DNA of 38,414 nucleotides. Origin: Anaerolineae bacterium (lineage in GTDB: Bacteria > Chloroflexota > Anaerolineae > JAKLPW01). Both the position numbers and the translations under genes were made by a program. A model generated the notes under the pieces. It was not told the DNA's origin. It saw only the letters and a list, made by a program, of their open reading frames with translations, and did no database searches. The DNA lies in contig JAKLPW010000251.1 of NCBI GenBank assembly GCA_022013675.1, positions 1 to 38,414 of the forward strand, given 5' to 3'. The stretch's first letter is position 1, and each line of letters starts with the position of its first letter. This document shows, one piece after another, positions 32,707-38,414 of this stretch.

Positions 32707-33084
32707 GCATGGTGTCAAACAGGTTCGGCCTCGTCCACACCACAACTTGGCTCTAATTCCAAGAACAGGATCGGCCCGCCAACTCTCATCAACACACAAT
32801 CCACCGCACCCGAGGAACAGGAGCAACGCCCCAGATCTCTTTTCCTTTCCTCATCGCACTTTCCCCAGAATTGGCAACACACACCGGAACCAGATCGCCC
32901 ACAGACTTGACTCAACCAACATCTGCACTATACTCTACAGAGAGGATTGGAGTTGAACCCATCGAGCACTACCACTCCACTTCCAATATGACAGTAACCT
33001 ACCTCCACACCCCAACCGCTCACTGCACATTGCAGATGCGTGCACCTAGTGCGTATAAGATGCTAAGGGAGTACACACATACTC
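32707..33084. other. Intergenic region between divergent rpe and dhaR
   Basis: Apart from the dhaR promoter I see no gene, strong hairpin or repeat. An open frame at 32516-32956 on the plus strand has no start signals and mostly mirrors rpe. Confidence 0.5.
32907..32934 (+). promoter_or_regulatory. Candidate sigma-70 promoter of the DhaR-like gene
   Basis: TTGACT (32907-32912), a 16-nt spacer and TATACT (32929-32934). The leader is about 140 nt. Confidence 0.5.
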
Positions 33085-35070
33085 ATGCTGCCAACGGCCT
33101 ATCCCTACAATCGTGACATCATCCTTGCTGCCTGGCACGAGTTTACCAGTCAGGGCACCTGTGATCTTGGCATTCTCGATCCAACCGTGGCGCGTTCGTG
33201 GCAACGTTGTCAACAGGCAGGGCTGGATCCGCATGCTTCCATGGCCACCTTGCCACGTCAGGATCCCGAAGCGCTTGAACGGCGGTTACATGCCCACTTT
33301 GACCTCATCGCTATCGCCCGCCCGTTCATGGAGGACATCTACCAATTCGTAGGAGAGCATGGTATCGTAATCTATCTTACCGACCGAGATCTCTGCATCC
33401 TGGATTCAGTAGGCGATCAGTCACTGCAGAAATCGTTGCATACTAGAGGCTTCGTGTCCAGATCGCACCTATCTGAAGATCTCATCGGCACCAACGCCGC
33501 AGCCCTGGCCCCAAGTGAGGGATTTCCCATTCAGGTGGTAGGACCTGAGCACTACTGCTCCACTCTTCACACCCTCAGCGACACCGCGGCTCCTATCCAT
33601 ACTCCGACAGGGGAAATGCTTGGCGTACTGAGCCTCGTCACCTTGGAGAGTGACAGCCATCCCCATACCTTGGGTATCGTCATGGCTGCGACCAAGGCAA
33701 TCGAGAACCAGTTGCGCACGGACCTGAGTCTCGCCGAGGCACATCAACACCTGGCAGAACTAAACATCTCCTTGCAGGCCATGAGCAAAGGTATAGTGTT
33801 CCTCAATCCCGAAGGTTGGATCACTCATATCAATGACCATGCTGGTGAAATCCTCGGTATATCCTCCCACAAGGCCATGGGACGCAGTTTACACTCTCTT
33901 GTTACACTCCCCAACGCAGTGGAAACAGCCATGGTAGAGCGGGTGTCGATGCCAGAGAAGGAAGTCGTCTTCCGAGCGATGGATGAGCCCCATCCCTGCA
34001 TGGCAAGCGTTGACGTACTGTGGCAAGGCTCAAACCTGTGCGGGTTTGTCCTCACCTTGGAACATACGGCACAGGTACGCCAGTTGGTACATCGCATGGT
34101 GGGTGCACGGGCCCACTTCACCTTCGACGACATCCTGGGACAGGCTTCAGAGATGAGGCGGGTATTGAACTACGCCCGCCTCACGGCCCAGGGCGATTCC
34201 AATGTGTTGCTTTTGGGCGAGAGTGGTACTGGCAAGGAGATGTTTGCCCAGGCCATTCACAACGAAGGTCGGCGGGCCAACGGCCCCTTCATCGAGATTG
34301 ACTGCGCGGCCATCCCCCGCGAGCTGATGGCCGGCGAGCTATTGGGTTACGAGAGGGCATTCGCCACAGCCGAAGAGGATGGTCGTCCAGGCAAGTTTGA
34401 ACTGGCCGATGGAGGCACCATCTTTCTCGATAACGTGGACGGAATGGCCCTGGACATGCAGGCTAGCCTGCTACGGATGATCTATACCAAGGAAGCCATC
34501 CGCCTGGGCGGCACCCGGATCATTTCCCTCGATGTGCGTATCATTGCCGCTTCTAGCAATGTAGATTTGGCCGATGAAGTGCGGCGGGGTAACTTTCGTG
34601 ATGACCTTTACCACCGTTTGTACGCTCTGACTCTCACTATTCCCCCGCTGCGAGAGCGAGGAAAAGACATTCTTCTGTTGATCGCTCACCTGACTCAGGA
34701 ATTCGCCCACCGTCTGGGCAAGACTGTTACTGTTTCGCTTGAGGCTTTAGCTGCGCTGCAATCGTATAGTTGGCCCGGGAACATCCGTGAGCTGGAAAAC
34801 GTGCTGGAACGAGCCATGCACACGGTGGAGGACGGCGAGTTGACTGTGAAACACCTACCCCGTGAGCTGCGTATGGCTACCATCGGCGACACGGATGTCG
34901 CTGTGACTACCCTTCAAGAGGCCGAGCGCCAGGCGATCATCCGCGCAGGGCGGGTCTTTCGGGGCAATACCATCAAAATGGCTGCCTCTCTGGGCATCAG
35001 TCGTACCACCCTATGGCGCAGGATTAAGGCTTTCAACCTATCCATAGAATCTTTCAAGGGAAAGCATTAG
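33085..35070 (+). CDS. dhaR: DhaR-like AAA+ transcriptional activator with degenerate sigma-54 motifs
   Basis: A 661-residue regulator with the AcoR/DhaR layout: N-terminal GAF-type sensor (about 70-210), a PAS-like region (about 220-340), an AAA+ domain (about 350-580) and a Fis-type helix-turn-helix at the end (IKMAASLGISRTTLWRRIKAF). Walker A is intact (GESGTGKE, 378-385). Two motifs needed by sigma-54 activators are not: the GAFTGA loop reads RAFATAE (from residue 424), and Walker B ends in D449-N450 instead of Asp-Glu. E. coli DhaR is also recalled to have a degenerate AAA+ domain and a very similar C-terminus, and to act on a sigma-70 promoter. The next genes are glpF, dhaK and dhaL, so control of glycerol/dihydroxyacetone use is the likely job. 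The ATG at 33085 has GGGAG about 11 nt upstream. Confidence 0.85.
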   Translation: MLPTAYPYNRDIILAAWHEFTSQGTCDLGILDPTVARSWQRCQQAGLDPHASMATLPRQDPEALERRLHAHFDLIAIARPFMEDIYQFVGEHGIVIYLTDRDLCILDSVGDQSLQKSLHTRGFVSRSHLSEDLIGTNAAALAPSEGFPIQVVGPEHYCSTLHTLSDTAAPIHTPTGEMLGVLSLVTLESDSHPHTLGIVMAATKAIENQLRTDLSLAEAHQHLAELNISLQAMSKGIVFLNPEGWITHINDHAGEILGISSHKAMGRSLHSLVTLPNAVETAMVERVSMPEKEVVFRAMDEPHPCMASVDVLWQGSNLCGFVLTLEHTAQVRQLVHRMVGARAHFTFDDILGQASEMRRVLNYARLTAQGDSNVLLLGESGTGKEMFAQAIHNEGRRANGPFIEIDCAAIPRELMAGELLGYERAFATAEEDGRPGKFELADGGTIFLDNVDGMALDMQASLLRMIYTKEAIRLGGTRIISLDVRIIAASSNVDLADEVRRGNFRDDLYHRLYALTLTIPPLRERGKDILLLIAHLTQEFAHRLGKTVTVSLEALAALQSYSWPGNIRELENVLERAMHTVEDGELTVKHLPRELRMATIGDTDVAVTTLQEAERQAIIRAGRVFRGNTIKMAASLGISRTTLWRRIKAFNLSIESFKGKH

Positions 35071-35190
35071 CTGCTCGCTGATTACCCGATCGCGTTCTGT
35101 ATCATAACAATCAGCCAAAAAGGAGTGTTCTGAGAAAAAACGCCATTGAGATTCCAAGTGTTTCAATATGCAACACTTCGAGGAAAACCA

Positions 35191-35218
35191 TTGACACCAC
35201 CGCCTTCTGAGGTATAAT
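35191..35218 (+). promoter_or_regulatory. Consensus sigma-70 promoter of the leader/small RNA
   Basis: Perfect TTGACA (35191-35196), a 16-nt spacer and perfect TATAAT (35213-35218). Confidence 0.75.
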
Positions 35219-35326
35219 AGAGGTGTGACATGCATAAGGAAGTTGCCTGCCATGTGATTAGGGTATCCCAAGGGGGGGGAGCGTGCTCAAGTCATCCGGG
35301 CCAGTAGAGGCTACTCGTGGGTTTGG

Positions 35327-35362
35327 CACTTGGGAATTGGCCAGCGTGCACTTGGGTGTTGG
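35327..35362 (+). repeat. Two direct repeats CACTTGGGnnTTGG
   Basis: Copies at 35327-35340 and 35349-35362, 22 bp apart (two helical turns). They could be part of an RNA fold or tandem protein-binding sites, for example for the DhaR-like regulator. Confidence 0.55.
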
Positions 35363-35379
35363 TGCTGTGTGACGAGACA

Positions 35380-35428
35380 AGGAGGCATCTATCCGAGCAA
35401 AGCTCGGATAGATGCCTCCTTTCTTGTT
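35380..35428 (+). terminator. Very strong intrinsic terminator upstream of glpF
   Basis: A perfect 19-bp stem (35380-35398 with 35402-35420) on an AAA loop is followed by TTTCTTGTT. It lies 170 bp before the glpF start and well after the dhaR stop. Confidence 0.9.
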
Positions 35429-35569
35429 GAACAGTGGAGCGAGTGAGGAAGCGGTGGACCCTCGGACGCGTTCTCTTTCGATGAGGGCCACGCCAAAGAT
35501 GGGAAAGGGGGTGATTCTACAGACAATGGAGTCGGCGTTCTCAGTACCATCCGTCTTGACAGAACAGCG

Positions 35570-35575
35570 TATAAT
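35570..35575 (+). promoter_or_regulatory. -10 box close to glpF
   Basis: A perfect TATAAT sits 20 nt before the glpF ATG, with no -35 box at the right distance (a TTGACA at 35556 is too close). Such promoters often depend on an activator; the DhaR-like protein is the obvious candidate. The leader would be very short, with AAGGAG at its 5' end. Confidence 0.35.
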
Positions 35576-35595
35576 ACGAAAAGGAGAGAAGCACA

Positions 35596-36384
35596 ATGAA
35601 GAAGAACGGTCTGAAGGGCGAGTTCATTGGTGAGGTGTTCGGGACATTCATCTTGATTCTCCTCGGTGATGGTGTTGTCGCCAACGTCGGGCTGGCCCCG
35701 CGCCTGGCGGCACCGGCCTACAACTGGAACACGATTGTCTTTGGGTGGTGCTTCGCGGTCGTCGTGGCCGTGTATGTCACTGCTGGCGTCTCCGGCGCGC
35801 ACATCAACCCAGCCGTCACGTTGGCTATGGCGGTGAAGCGCGGGTTCTCCTGGTCCAAGGTCGTCCCCTACTGGATCGCACAGATGCTTGGTGCCTTCCT
35901 TGGAGCGCTCGGCGTGTACCTGACGCACATGGATGGCCTGGTGGCATCGGGCATGCCCAATGTCTGGTGCACCGGCCCTGGCGCCATCTTCTCGACAACC
36001 TTCTGGGGAGGCGCAGGGGGATCGCCCTTGGGAAGCTACTCGCTGGCCACGGCGTTTGTCACAGAGGTCTTCGGCACGGCCGTGCTCCTGTGGGGCATCC
36101 TGGCTGCCTTTGACGCGAAGAACACTGCCATCGGGGCAAATCTTGGCCCGTTACTGGTGGGATTCGTCGTTCTGGCGGTGGGCCTTTCCCTGGGTGGCCC
36201 CAGTGGCTACGCCATCAACCCCGCCCGTGACCTTGGCCCGCGCATCTTCGGGGCACTCGTTGGCACCACCGGTCTCTTCGACGGTCTCTACTGGCTGCTG
36301 CCACCCGTCATCGGGGCACTCATCGGTGGCGTTCTGGGCGTTTTCACCTATGATTGGTTCGTTACCCCCAACCTGCCTGAGTAG
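35596..36384 (+). CDS. glpF: Aquaglyceroporin (glycerol uptake facilitator)
   Basis: MIP-family channel of 262 residues with six membrane spans and two half-helices. The two NPA motifs are present: HINPAV (71-73) and AINPARDLGPR (208-210). The aspartate directly after NPAR (D212) is the mark of glycerol-conducting members over pure water channels. AAGGAG lies about 9 nt before the ATG. It stands between the DhaR-like regulator and dhaK, consistent with bringing in glycerol or dihydroxyacetone for the kinase. No glycerol kinase or glycerol dehydrogenase gene is in the window. Confidence 0.95.
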   Translation: MKKNGLKGEFIGEVFGTFILILLGDGVVANVGLAPRLAAPAYNWNTIVFGWCFAVVVAVYVTAGVSGAHINPAVTLAMAVKRGFSWSKVVPYWIAQMLGAFLGALGVYLTHMDGLVASGMPNVWCTGPGAIFSTTFWGGAGGSPLGSYSLATAFVTEVFGTAVLLWGILAAFDAKNTAIGANLGPLLVGFVVLAVGLSLGGPSGYAINPARDLGPRIFGALVGTTGLFDGLYWLLPPVIGALIGGVLGVFTYDWFVTPNLPE

Positions 36385-36440
36385 TCCTAGGCAGCCGATC
36401 TGTGCTATGCTGAACGTGGTGTAGCTCGACTACAAGTAGA

Positions 36441-36483
36441 CAGGAGGGAAGCAAGCAGGGAACGATCCTCTTCTTCCCTCCTG
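36441..36483 (+). other. Long-loop inverted repeat between glpF and dhaK
   Basis: An 11-bp perfect inverted repeat (CAGGAGGGAAG at 36441-36451 with its complement at 36473-36483) closes a 21-nt loop. No T-run follows, so it is more likely an mRNA processing or stabilising structure than a terminator. Confidence 0.5.
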
Positions 36484-36522
36484 AGCAGCAACACGGATAA
36501 CTAGAAAGGAGAGAGAGAGAGC

Positions 36523-37524
36523 ATGAAGAAACTCATCAACAAAGCAGAGGATGTAGTGAAAGAGGAATTGGAGGGTGTCGCCCTGGCCCATGCAGACCTG
36601 GTCAAGGTGCACTTTGATCCTGATTTCGTTTACCGCGTCGATGCCCCTGTAAAGGGCAAAGTGGCTGTCATCTCCGGCGGCGGCAGTGGCCACGAGCCGA
36701 TGCACGGCGGCTTTGTGGGCATGGGCATGCTGGATGCAGCCTGTCCCGGTCAGGTATTCACATCACCGACCCCGGACCAGATGCTCGAAGCCACCAAGAT
36801 GGTGGACGGTGGCGCAGGCGTGCTCCACATCGTCAAGAACTACAGCGGCGACATCATGAACTTCGAGATGGCGGCCGACATGGCTAGTGACGAGGGGATT
36901 AAGGTGGAAGCCGTCATCATCGACGACGACGTTGCCGTGAAGGACTCCCTGTACACACAGGGGCGTCGCGGTGTAGGAACTACCGTGCTGGCCGAGAAGA
37001 TCTGTGGCGCTGCGGCGGAGAAGGGACTCGATCTCAAGAAAGTGGCCAATCTGTGTCGCAAGGTGAACGGCTGGGGTCGCACCATGGGGATGGCCCTCAC
37101 GTCCTGCATTGTGCCAATGGCAGGCAAGCCCACCTTCGATTTGGCCGATGATGAGATGGAAATCGGGATCGGTATCCACGGTGAGCCTGGCCGTAAACGG
37201 ATGAAAGTCAAGACGGCTGACGAGGTCACTGAGATGCTGGCCGAGGCGATCATATCCGATCTGCCCTACAAGGCCGGCGACAAGGTCCTGGCCTTCGTGA
37301 ACGGCATGGGCGGCACACCCCCCATCGAGTTGTACATCATCTACCGAAAACTCGAGCAAATCTGCGACGCGAAGGGTATCAAGATCGTGCGCAATCTCAT
37401 CGGCCCTTACATCACCTCCCTGGAGATGCAGGGATGCTCCATCACTCTGTTGAAGATGGACGATGAACTGCTCGAACTGTGGGACGCCCCGGTTAATACC
37501 CCTGGTCTGCGCTGGGGTGTGTAG
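36523..37524 (+). CDS. dhaK: Dihydroxyacetone kinase subunit DhaK
   Basis: Substrate-binding subunit (333 residues) of the phosphotransferase-type dihydroxyacetone kinase. The GGGSGHEP loop (52-59) and H219 in GIGIHGEPG, the histidine that forms the hemiaminal with dihydroxyacetone, are present. AAGGAG lies 11 nt before the ATG, and the spacer is a run of GA repeats. It needs DhaL, the next gene, for ADP-bound phosphoryl transfer. Because the subunits are separate, the phosphoryl donor should be a PTS-type DhaM, not seen in the window. Confidence 0.96.
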
Positions 37525-37701
37525 GTCACTGACCATCGGCCTGGGATGAAATCGCCTAATCGATCAGTCTTCCTGACCATCCCGAAGTCTGTCGATGACG
37601 CTCGTGGATGGTCGGGAAGGGGAAGTGTGTCCCTTGCTTCGGCAAGCAAGAGAGTACTTCTATGGCGACCAGTCGAAGAGCTCACAAAGGAGACATTCTG
37701 T
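37525..37701 (+). other. Structured spacer between dhaK and dhaL
   Basis: The 177-nt spacer contains an inverted repeat GACCATC/GATGGTC and a compact CTTGC-TTCG-GCAAG hairpin with a UUCG tetraloop (around 37634-37650). No gene is seen. These may set the relative amounts of the two subunits. Confidence 0.4.
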
Positions 37702-38373
<672 letters not shown>

Positions 38374-38414
38374 GTGTGAAGTGCACTATTCCGCAAGAGG
38401 AGCTTAGTGCTCCA

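Follow-up and report, generated by a model that had tools for sequence, protein, structure and literature searches.

A candidate leader-peptide transcription attenuator upstream of the glpF, dhaK and dhaL genes of an Anaerolineae bacterium

Known leader systems and the glpF locus

In attenuators of the pyrBI type, a short reading frame runs to or into an intrinsic terminator and a ribosome that follows closely suppresses termination, no antiterminator hairpin being needed. Attenuators of the trp/his type have a drifting leader peptide that is enriched in one codon, and a promoter, a leader and a terminator before glpF is the layout of the GlpP-controlled leaders of Bacillus. Both pyrBI and termination close to stop codons are treated in PMC4824070. 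According to that paper, termination in E. coli is nearly eliminated when a stop codon precedes the terminator by a few bp, a stop codon more than about 30 bp away has no effect, and terminators can still act in the first 100 bp of a frame, coupling being unestablished there. In a 2010 survey (PMC2965389), the leader-peptide attenuators known at that time are said to come from Proteobacteria and Actinobacteria only, except for the atypical ermC leader, and a Firmicutes case is added. We found no literature on leader-peptide transcription attenuation in Chloroflexi and nothing on point, by title, on dihydroxyacetone kinase with transcription attenuation; among the matches listed, none was on point for Trp-codon leader peptides in glycerol attenuation, and none of those listed on riboswitches, leaders and attenuators mentioned Anaerolineae.

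The window (the whole stretch of DNA that was analysed, 38,414 nucleotides) is one contig (C186) of the 3.94-Mb draft genome G000, which is 93% complete. On its forward strand the gene of a DhaR-like activator is followed by a leader unit of about 200 nt, a glpF-like channel gene, dhaK and dhaL (Table 1). The activator has its best match in the NCBIfam DhaR model, with 514 bits, below the cut-off of 551 bits. It carries GELLGYERAFAT at the place of a GAFTGA motif, and this replacement of a GAFTGA-type loop fits a sigma-70 partner and promoter. In named records, close relatives of the window GlpF come from Chloroflexota MAGs, most of which carry the label Anaerolineae or Thermoflexia. When the own genome was searched for further copies of the unit, the locus itself, its own hairpin reversed and three chance-level matches of 15–17 bases were returned. 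Between glpF and dhaK (window 36441-36483), CAGGAGGGAAG...CTTCCCTCCTG also forms an inverted repeat of 11 bp that lacks a T run, and L033, L040 and L047 were seen by eye to have hairpins of differing sequence in the corresponding position; this intergenic hairpin possibly serves differential mRNA stability.

From the sequence comparisons described below, we consider it probable that the glpF-dhaK-dhaL mRNA begins with this unit as its 5' leader, which acts as a leader-peptide, that is, ribosome-controlled, transcription attenuator. As in the pyrBI type, the predicted leader frame runs to the terminator and no antiterminator hairpin is needed; the differences are that the operon is one of a glycerol facilitator and dihydroxyacetone kinase, that Trp codons are enriched across the set of loci, and that the organism belongs to the Chloroflexota. 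The likeness to the trp/his type lies in leader peptides that drift while the Trp codon is enriched, although this excess is seen across the set and the window has one Trp codon. Unlike in that type, antiterminator pairing exceeds chance at one of 22 loci, the stop codon lies at the terminator, and the operon is not one for Trp synthesis; TrpE and TrpB were not found in the window's genome at E ≤ 1e-60. A terminator between promoter and glpF is shared with GlpP antitermination of glpF and glpD leaders, whereas GlpP (family PF04309, E ≤ 1e-5) was found in none of the 35 genomes searched here, three control genomes being positive. T-box leaders also have a terminator, and a tRNA-related signal is possible at glpF too, but the scanned glpF loci gave no T-box match.

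Promoter, leader frame and terminator

The consensus promoter described by the sequence-only reading was confirmed. It is the sole site of at least 9/12 in a scan of positions 33000-38414, where shuffles give 3.0 ± 1.8 passing sites; the unusual feature is the perfect score, not the number of sites. A putative DhaR operator lies upstream. Scoring was done for 41 of 68 loci, those with a promoter of at least 10/12 (27 of the 68 were left unscored), and TGTTTCAnnnTGAAACA with three or fewer mismatches was present at 24 of the 41, the window included, always starting 32-33 nt upstream of the -35 box; the remaining 17 have 4 to 9 mismatches. As the neighbouring gene is DhaR-like, DhaR may bind at this operator, and the promoter of the glpF operon is probably DhaR-activated.

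The terminator stem had been described as perfect and 19 bp long; it is perfect, with a length of 20 pairs. Three terminator-like sites passed a scan in which 3.2 were expected; apart from this one, they are 5-pair stems. The outer 10-pair stem is 100% paired in the window, L036, L037 and L034, with 4/10 pairs changed on both sides, and clear T runs follow the stems of relatives, e.g. L034, L048 and L051. No second sigma-70-like site (at least 9/12) was detected between terminator and glpF in the window, and such sites follow the terminator only in L050 and L077 among 24 loci. In the window, glpF transcription would thus have to pass the terminator, unless a promoter of another type is used.

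Table 1. Positions of the features of the leader unit and its neighbouring genes in the window
Feature	Positions	Strand	Remarks
DhaR-like activator gene	33085..35070	+	transcribed towards the leader unit
Putative DhaR operator TGTTTCAATATGCAACA	35159..35175	.	differs from TGTTTCAnnnTGAAACA at one position; begins 32 nt upstream of the -35 box
Sigma-70-type promoter TTGACA-16-TATAAT	35191..35218	+	12/12 consensus; TTGACA 35191-35196, 16-nt spacer, TATAAT 35213-35218
Predicted leader RNA	35225..35378	+	start about 35225, as judged from the promoter
Shine-Dalgarno sequence AAGGGGGGGGAG of the leader frame	35270..35281	+	contains the G8 run (35272-35279)
Predicted leader frame (M)LKSSGPVEATRGFGTWELASVHLGVGAV	35283..35372	+	GTG start, 29 codons, stop TGA 35370-35372
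Intrinsic terminator hairpin, 20 bp	35379..35421	+	20 perfect pairs, AAA loop
U-rich tail TCTTGTTGAA	35422..35431	+	mediocre to weak U-tract
Shine-Dalgarno-like element AAAGGGGGTGATT	35504..35516	+	lacks a start codon 4-10 nt downstream
glpF-like channel gene (MIP family)	35596..36384	+	TIGR00861, 173.2 bits, cut-off 171.25
dhaK	36523..37524	+	TIGR02363, 495 bits, cut-off 406
dhaL	37546..38340	+	TIGR02365, 252 bits, cut-off 138

The claim that this stretch holds no gene is doubtful in view of the 29-codon frame with its Shine-Dalgarno sequence. The run of eight G, present as reported, would be part of this sequence, the pairing of which was calculated at -11.4 kcal/mol with the 16S tail (relatives L036 and L037, -16.9 and -15.9). 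The TGA stop lies 6 nt upstream of the terminator stem and the single Trp is codon 17 (35331-35333). A competing frame in the window (ATG 35230, stop 35305), which a rule-only pick chose, has its Shine-Dalgarno sequence at or before the predicted transcription start.

Local hairpins had also been claimed for the leader. The 155 nt before the terminator fold no better than shuffles (z = 0.18), whereas the whole unit has z = -4.68, which indicates that the fold excess comes with the terminator. The two copies of CACTTGGGnnTTGG exist, at 35327 and 35349, 22 bp apart. They stand in different codon phases within the leader frame and none was seen in four aligned relatives, nor in L036 and L037; for these reasons they were treated as chance. 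In the window, the CACTTGGG repeats could pair with CCCAAG/CTCAAG at the ribosome-binding site. The earlier failure to match the unit to a known RNA class is matched by our Rfam search, in which no family reached the gathering threshold in the window or at 14 glpF loci of relatives; at E ≤ 10 the window unit gave five sub-threshold matches, four of them on the hairpin (three microRNA models and one viral element) and one, a snoRNA, elsewhere. A riboswitch or known RNA class was rejected on the lack of an Rfam match, the shuffle-like fold and the lack of a conserved structured aptamer. In the four closest leaders (window, L036, L037 and L034), RNAalifold also predicted three small stems of 3–5 pairs each, one of which spans the start codon of the frame; 4 of their 12 pairs have double changes. 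The covariation check proposed earlier, made on four sequences to which the structure had itself been fitted, speaks for the terminator stem, which has double changes, while the upstream stems have too few to be called a structure. A long hairpin with hardly varying pairs is predicted over the frame start in L032, L033 and L035, and in L032 the frame to the stop seen in the other two is lost. Pairing of the leader with the 5' arm of the terminator was at chance in 18 loci (z -0.92 to 1.57; window, -0.03) and in three of a further four, the exception being L084 (z -2.2). A trp-type antiterminator was rejected on this result.

Stop codons and tryptophan codons in relatives

The GlpF protein search (E ≤ 1e-60) detected 35 of the 396 genomes of the class, the own genome included; by order, matches were found in 7 of 56 genomes, 39 of 301, and every genome of two small orders (2 and 3 genomes), these genome sets overlapping. 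Upstream regions of 68 loci were analysed, 37 in a first and 31 in a second set. The C-terminal end of dhaR lies just upstream in the window and in seven of eight relatives (L034, L036, L037, L039, L040, L042 and L051); the motifs tried did not detect it in the eighth, L086. By eye, the order operator, promoter, leader with frame, terminator and glpF often recurs. The leader sequences of more distant relatives do not align. In 59 other genomes, matches to the DNA of the leader at E ≤ 1 did not exceed 42 bases; the best one (L006:1501-1542, 42 bases, 84%, E 6e-4) covers the promoter stretch and belongs to G007, a genome without a match in the GlpF search. On conservation, the lack of which the sequence-only reading had named among its refuting observations, the result is divided: the sequence upstream of the terminator is not conserved, but layout, stop-codon position and Trp codons recur. 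The automatic rule found no terminator in 10 of the 31 new and 14 of the 37 old loci, and L044 has the operator and promoter before glpF and, by eye, no leader unit, which indicates that the device is dispensable.

For the position of the stop codon, frames of at least 7 codons preceded by a Shine-Dalgarno sequence were scored, with a zone from 12 nt before the stem to mid-stem. At 24 loci, with terminators chosen by hand, rules set post hoc and expectations from dinucleotide shuffles, the stop was in the zone in 13 (4.5 expected, P 4e-5) and no more than a few nt from the foot in 7 (1.7 expected); frames reached the terminator in 20 (11.0 expected). With automatic terminators, present at 23 of the 37 loci of the first set, the corresponding values were 15 (4.9 expected) in the zone, 8 (1.8) adjacent and 19 (10.7) reaching. 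The rule was fixed before the data were seen for the new loci, 21 of 31 of which have an automatic terminator; here the stop lay in the zone in 9 (4.5 expected, P 0.013), and neither the stricter 'adjacent' score (2 against 1.1 expected, P 0.3) nor the looser 'reach' score (14 against 11.6, P 0.18) was significant. Read by eye, about half of these 21 hairpins precede the promoter, being operator palindromes or stems of another kind, which blurs the test. Ten hairpins lie in the leader (L083, L086, L090, L094, L095, L105, L106, L109, L110 and L111), and nine of these loci score, L090 solely through weak TTG frames, in what is a subset made afterwards. In L084 and L085, where the rule had picked an operator palindrome, a TGA stop is found at the end of the 5' arm of the terminator. 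An ATACCGC stem is shared by L051, L094/L095 and L084/L085, with the stop in the arm or the loop each time; these near-identical stems stand in one phase in L051 and L084/L085 and in another in L094/L095. Because the loci are related, the P values for stop position and for Trp are too small.

Tryptophan was first noticed in early peptides and counted afterwards. In 24 leader frames, 38 of 630 codons (6.0%) encode Trp in frame, against 9/606 and 16/606 in the other phases. The controls gave 10/862 (1.2%) in other Shine-Dalgarno-preceded frames of the same regions, 4/272 past the terminator and 22/1047 on the reverse strand. The 22 hand-picked frames have 35/572 in phase versus 11/550 and 15/550 (shuffles, 12.9 ± 3.4), and ten later-fetched frames 14/244 versus 2/234 and 5/234 (shuffle mean, 4.7). 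When one frame was kept per close group (19 groups), the counts were 31/476 versus 8/457 and 12/457, and without the extreme L036, the leader of which has six Trp codons, they were 25/445 versus 8/427 and 12/427. Frames chosen by rule only, as the one with the strongest Shine-Dalgarno sequence after the promoter, include many plainly wrong picks; at 49 of 68 loci they gave 37/1268 versus 19/1219 in each of the other phases (null 20.5 ± 4.6, P 5e-4). Cys showed no excess in the 22 frames (27 against a null of 25.4), and Lys was also higher in phase (raw counts of 23/572 versus 11/550 and 11/550). This phase-specific Trp excess argues that the leader frame is translated. Trp positions range from codon 2 to codon 28, and a fixed-distance arrest peptide of the TnaC kind was rejected on account of this spread.

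The peptides themselves drift. Five pairs are near neutral change, although the numbers are small: 9 synonymous and 17 non-synonymous changes were counted in L084/L085, 3 and 7 in L047/L052 (the frame of which does not end at the terminator) and 1 and 9 in L094/L095, and the other two pairs, both of which include L101, have 3 or 4 changes each. A conserved functional peptide was rejected on these ratios and a conserved small protein is thus unlikely; the drift is as expected if the codons and the stop position matter more than the peptide. Of 13 genomes searched at E ≤ 1e-60, TrpE was found in 3 (two of them above the cut-off) and TrpB in 2. The lack of both matches in the window's genome, within a draft of 93% completeness, suggests tryptophan auxotrophy there and in the relatives that likewise lack them. 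In the two genomes with TrpE and TrpB, a T-box precedes trpE (L113:1023-1358, 103 bits; L114:1082-1390, 107 bits).

Proposed attenuation by a leader peptide and its alternatives

In the proposed mechanism, RNA polymerase would start at the probably DhaR-activated promoter, and the leader RNA would offer a strong ribosome-binding site and a short frame with its stop at the foot of the terminator. A ribosome following closely to the end of the frame would cover the hairpin foot, so that no terminator would form and glpF-dhaK-dhaL would be transcribed, whereas late or slow translation, e.g. at Trp codons, would allow the terminator to form and an RNA of about 200 nt to be released. Slow Trp codons far from the stem would favour termination, and those next to it could favour read-through. 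Direct blocking by the ribosome is proposed because antiterminator pairing is at chance in 21 of 22 loci. Since the leader frame measures 90 bp, less than 100 bp, default termination with conditional read-through would be the natural outcome, and the 96 bp from start to stem mean that a pause or fast initiation would be needed for the ribosome to block. In the window, the single Trp at codon 17 and the weak U-tract are points against an attenuator. We infer the transcription start, the translation of the frame, the binding of DhaR, the direction of control and the signal from the sequence; the leader itself appears to be real and is probably functional. A narrower version, in which charged tRNA-Trp would let the ribosome reach the stop at the terminator and thereby switch the DhaR-controlled operon on, is rather unlikely.

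The earlier suggestion of a leader with controlled termination before glpF fits the layout in relatives, although its ligand-sensing form, a riboswitch, is unsupported. That an RNA-binding protein or a ligand, and not the ribosome, decides read-through, by GlpP-like antitermination or a riboswitch, would agree with the resemblance to the Bacillus leaders, with the double changes in the three short stems and with the long hairpin of L032, L033 and L035. We regard it as quite improbable, in view of the result for GlpP, the lack of an Rfam family in the window and 14 loci, a leader that folds like shuffles and pairs with the terminator arm at chance in 21 of 22 loci, and Trp codons that it leaves unexplained. 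A stand-alone small RNA of about 200 nt, the other option raised by the sequence-only reading, with glpF transcribed from elsewhere, is likewise improbable. Promoter and strong hairpin do enclose a self-contained unit, but a terminated leader RNA would look identical; the RNA body is not conserved, as the search of 59 other genomes indicates, a second promoter of at least 9/12 before glpF is lacking in the window and occurs after the terminator in two of 24 loci, and in L044 the operator and promoter precede glpF without the unit.

We give least credence to the hairpin being an mRNA-processing or stabilising stem that protects the glpF mRNA together with the downstream Shine-Dalgarno-like element. 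This would suit the weak U-tract of the window and the mostly start-less AAAGGRGGTGAT element, which resembles the STAB-SD of cry3A; PMC4113751 describes the latter as a site bound by 30S subunits that protects mRNA but does not start translation. It leaves the stop position and the Trp codons unexplained, and does not agree with the clear T runs after the stems of L034, L048, L051 and other relatives.

The downstream element, AAAGGGGGTGATT, is nearly complementary to the 16S tail; it is probably separate from the attenuator and a possible STAB-SD-like mRNA stabiliser. At least 10 of the 12 letters of AAAGGRGGTGAT were found in 21 of 37 loci; in 4 of the 37 the best match is followed at 4-10 nt by a start codon. 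A coding frame at AAAGGRGGTG was rejected, since the loci share neither a start codon nor a frame length. The own genome has 14 sites that match the element with at most one mismatch, several of them about 95-115 nt before genes that, from reading their translations, are transporter-like. The element lies about 90-115 nt before starts of glpF and of substrate-binding-lipoprotein-like genes in the window, L061, L064, L066, L067 and L069. A general mRNA stabiliser of the class is possible.

If the Trp-reading version were true, the uptake of carbon would be coupled to the availability of an imported amino acid, in the sense opposite to the classic trp attenuator; that this Trp would be imported follows from TrpE and TrpB not being found in most of the 13 genomes. 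If the leader-peptide attenuator is real, it would add a phylum, the Chloroflexota, and an unexpected kind of operon to those with such control. It would be a leader that keeps its layout, stop position and Trp codons while RNA and peptide drift, a device that searches for conserved RNA structure would miss.
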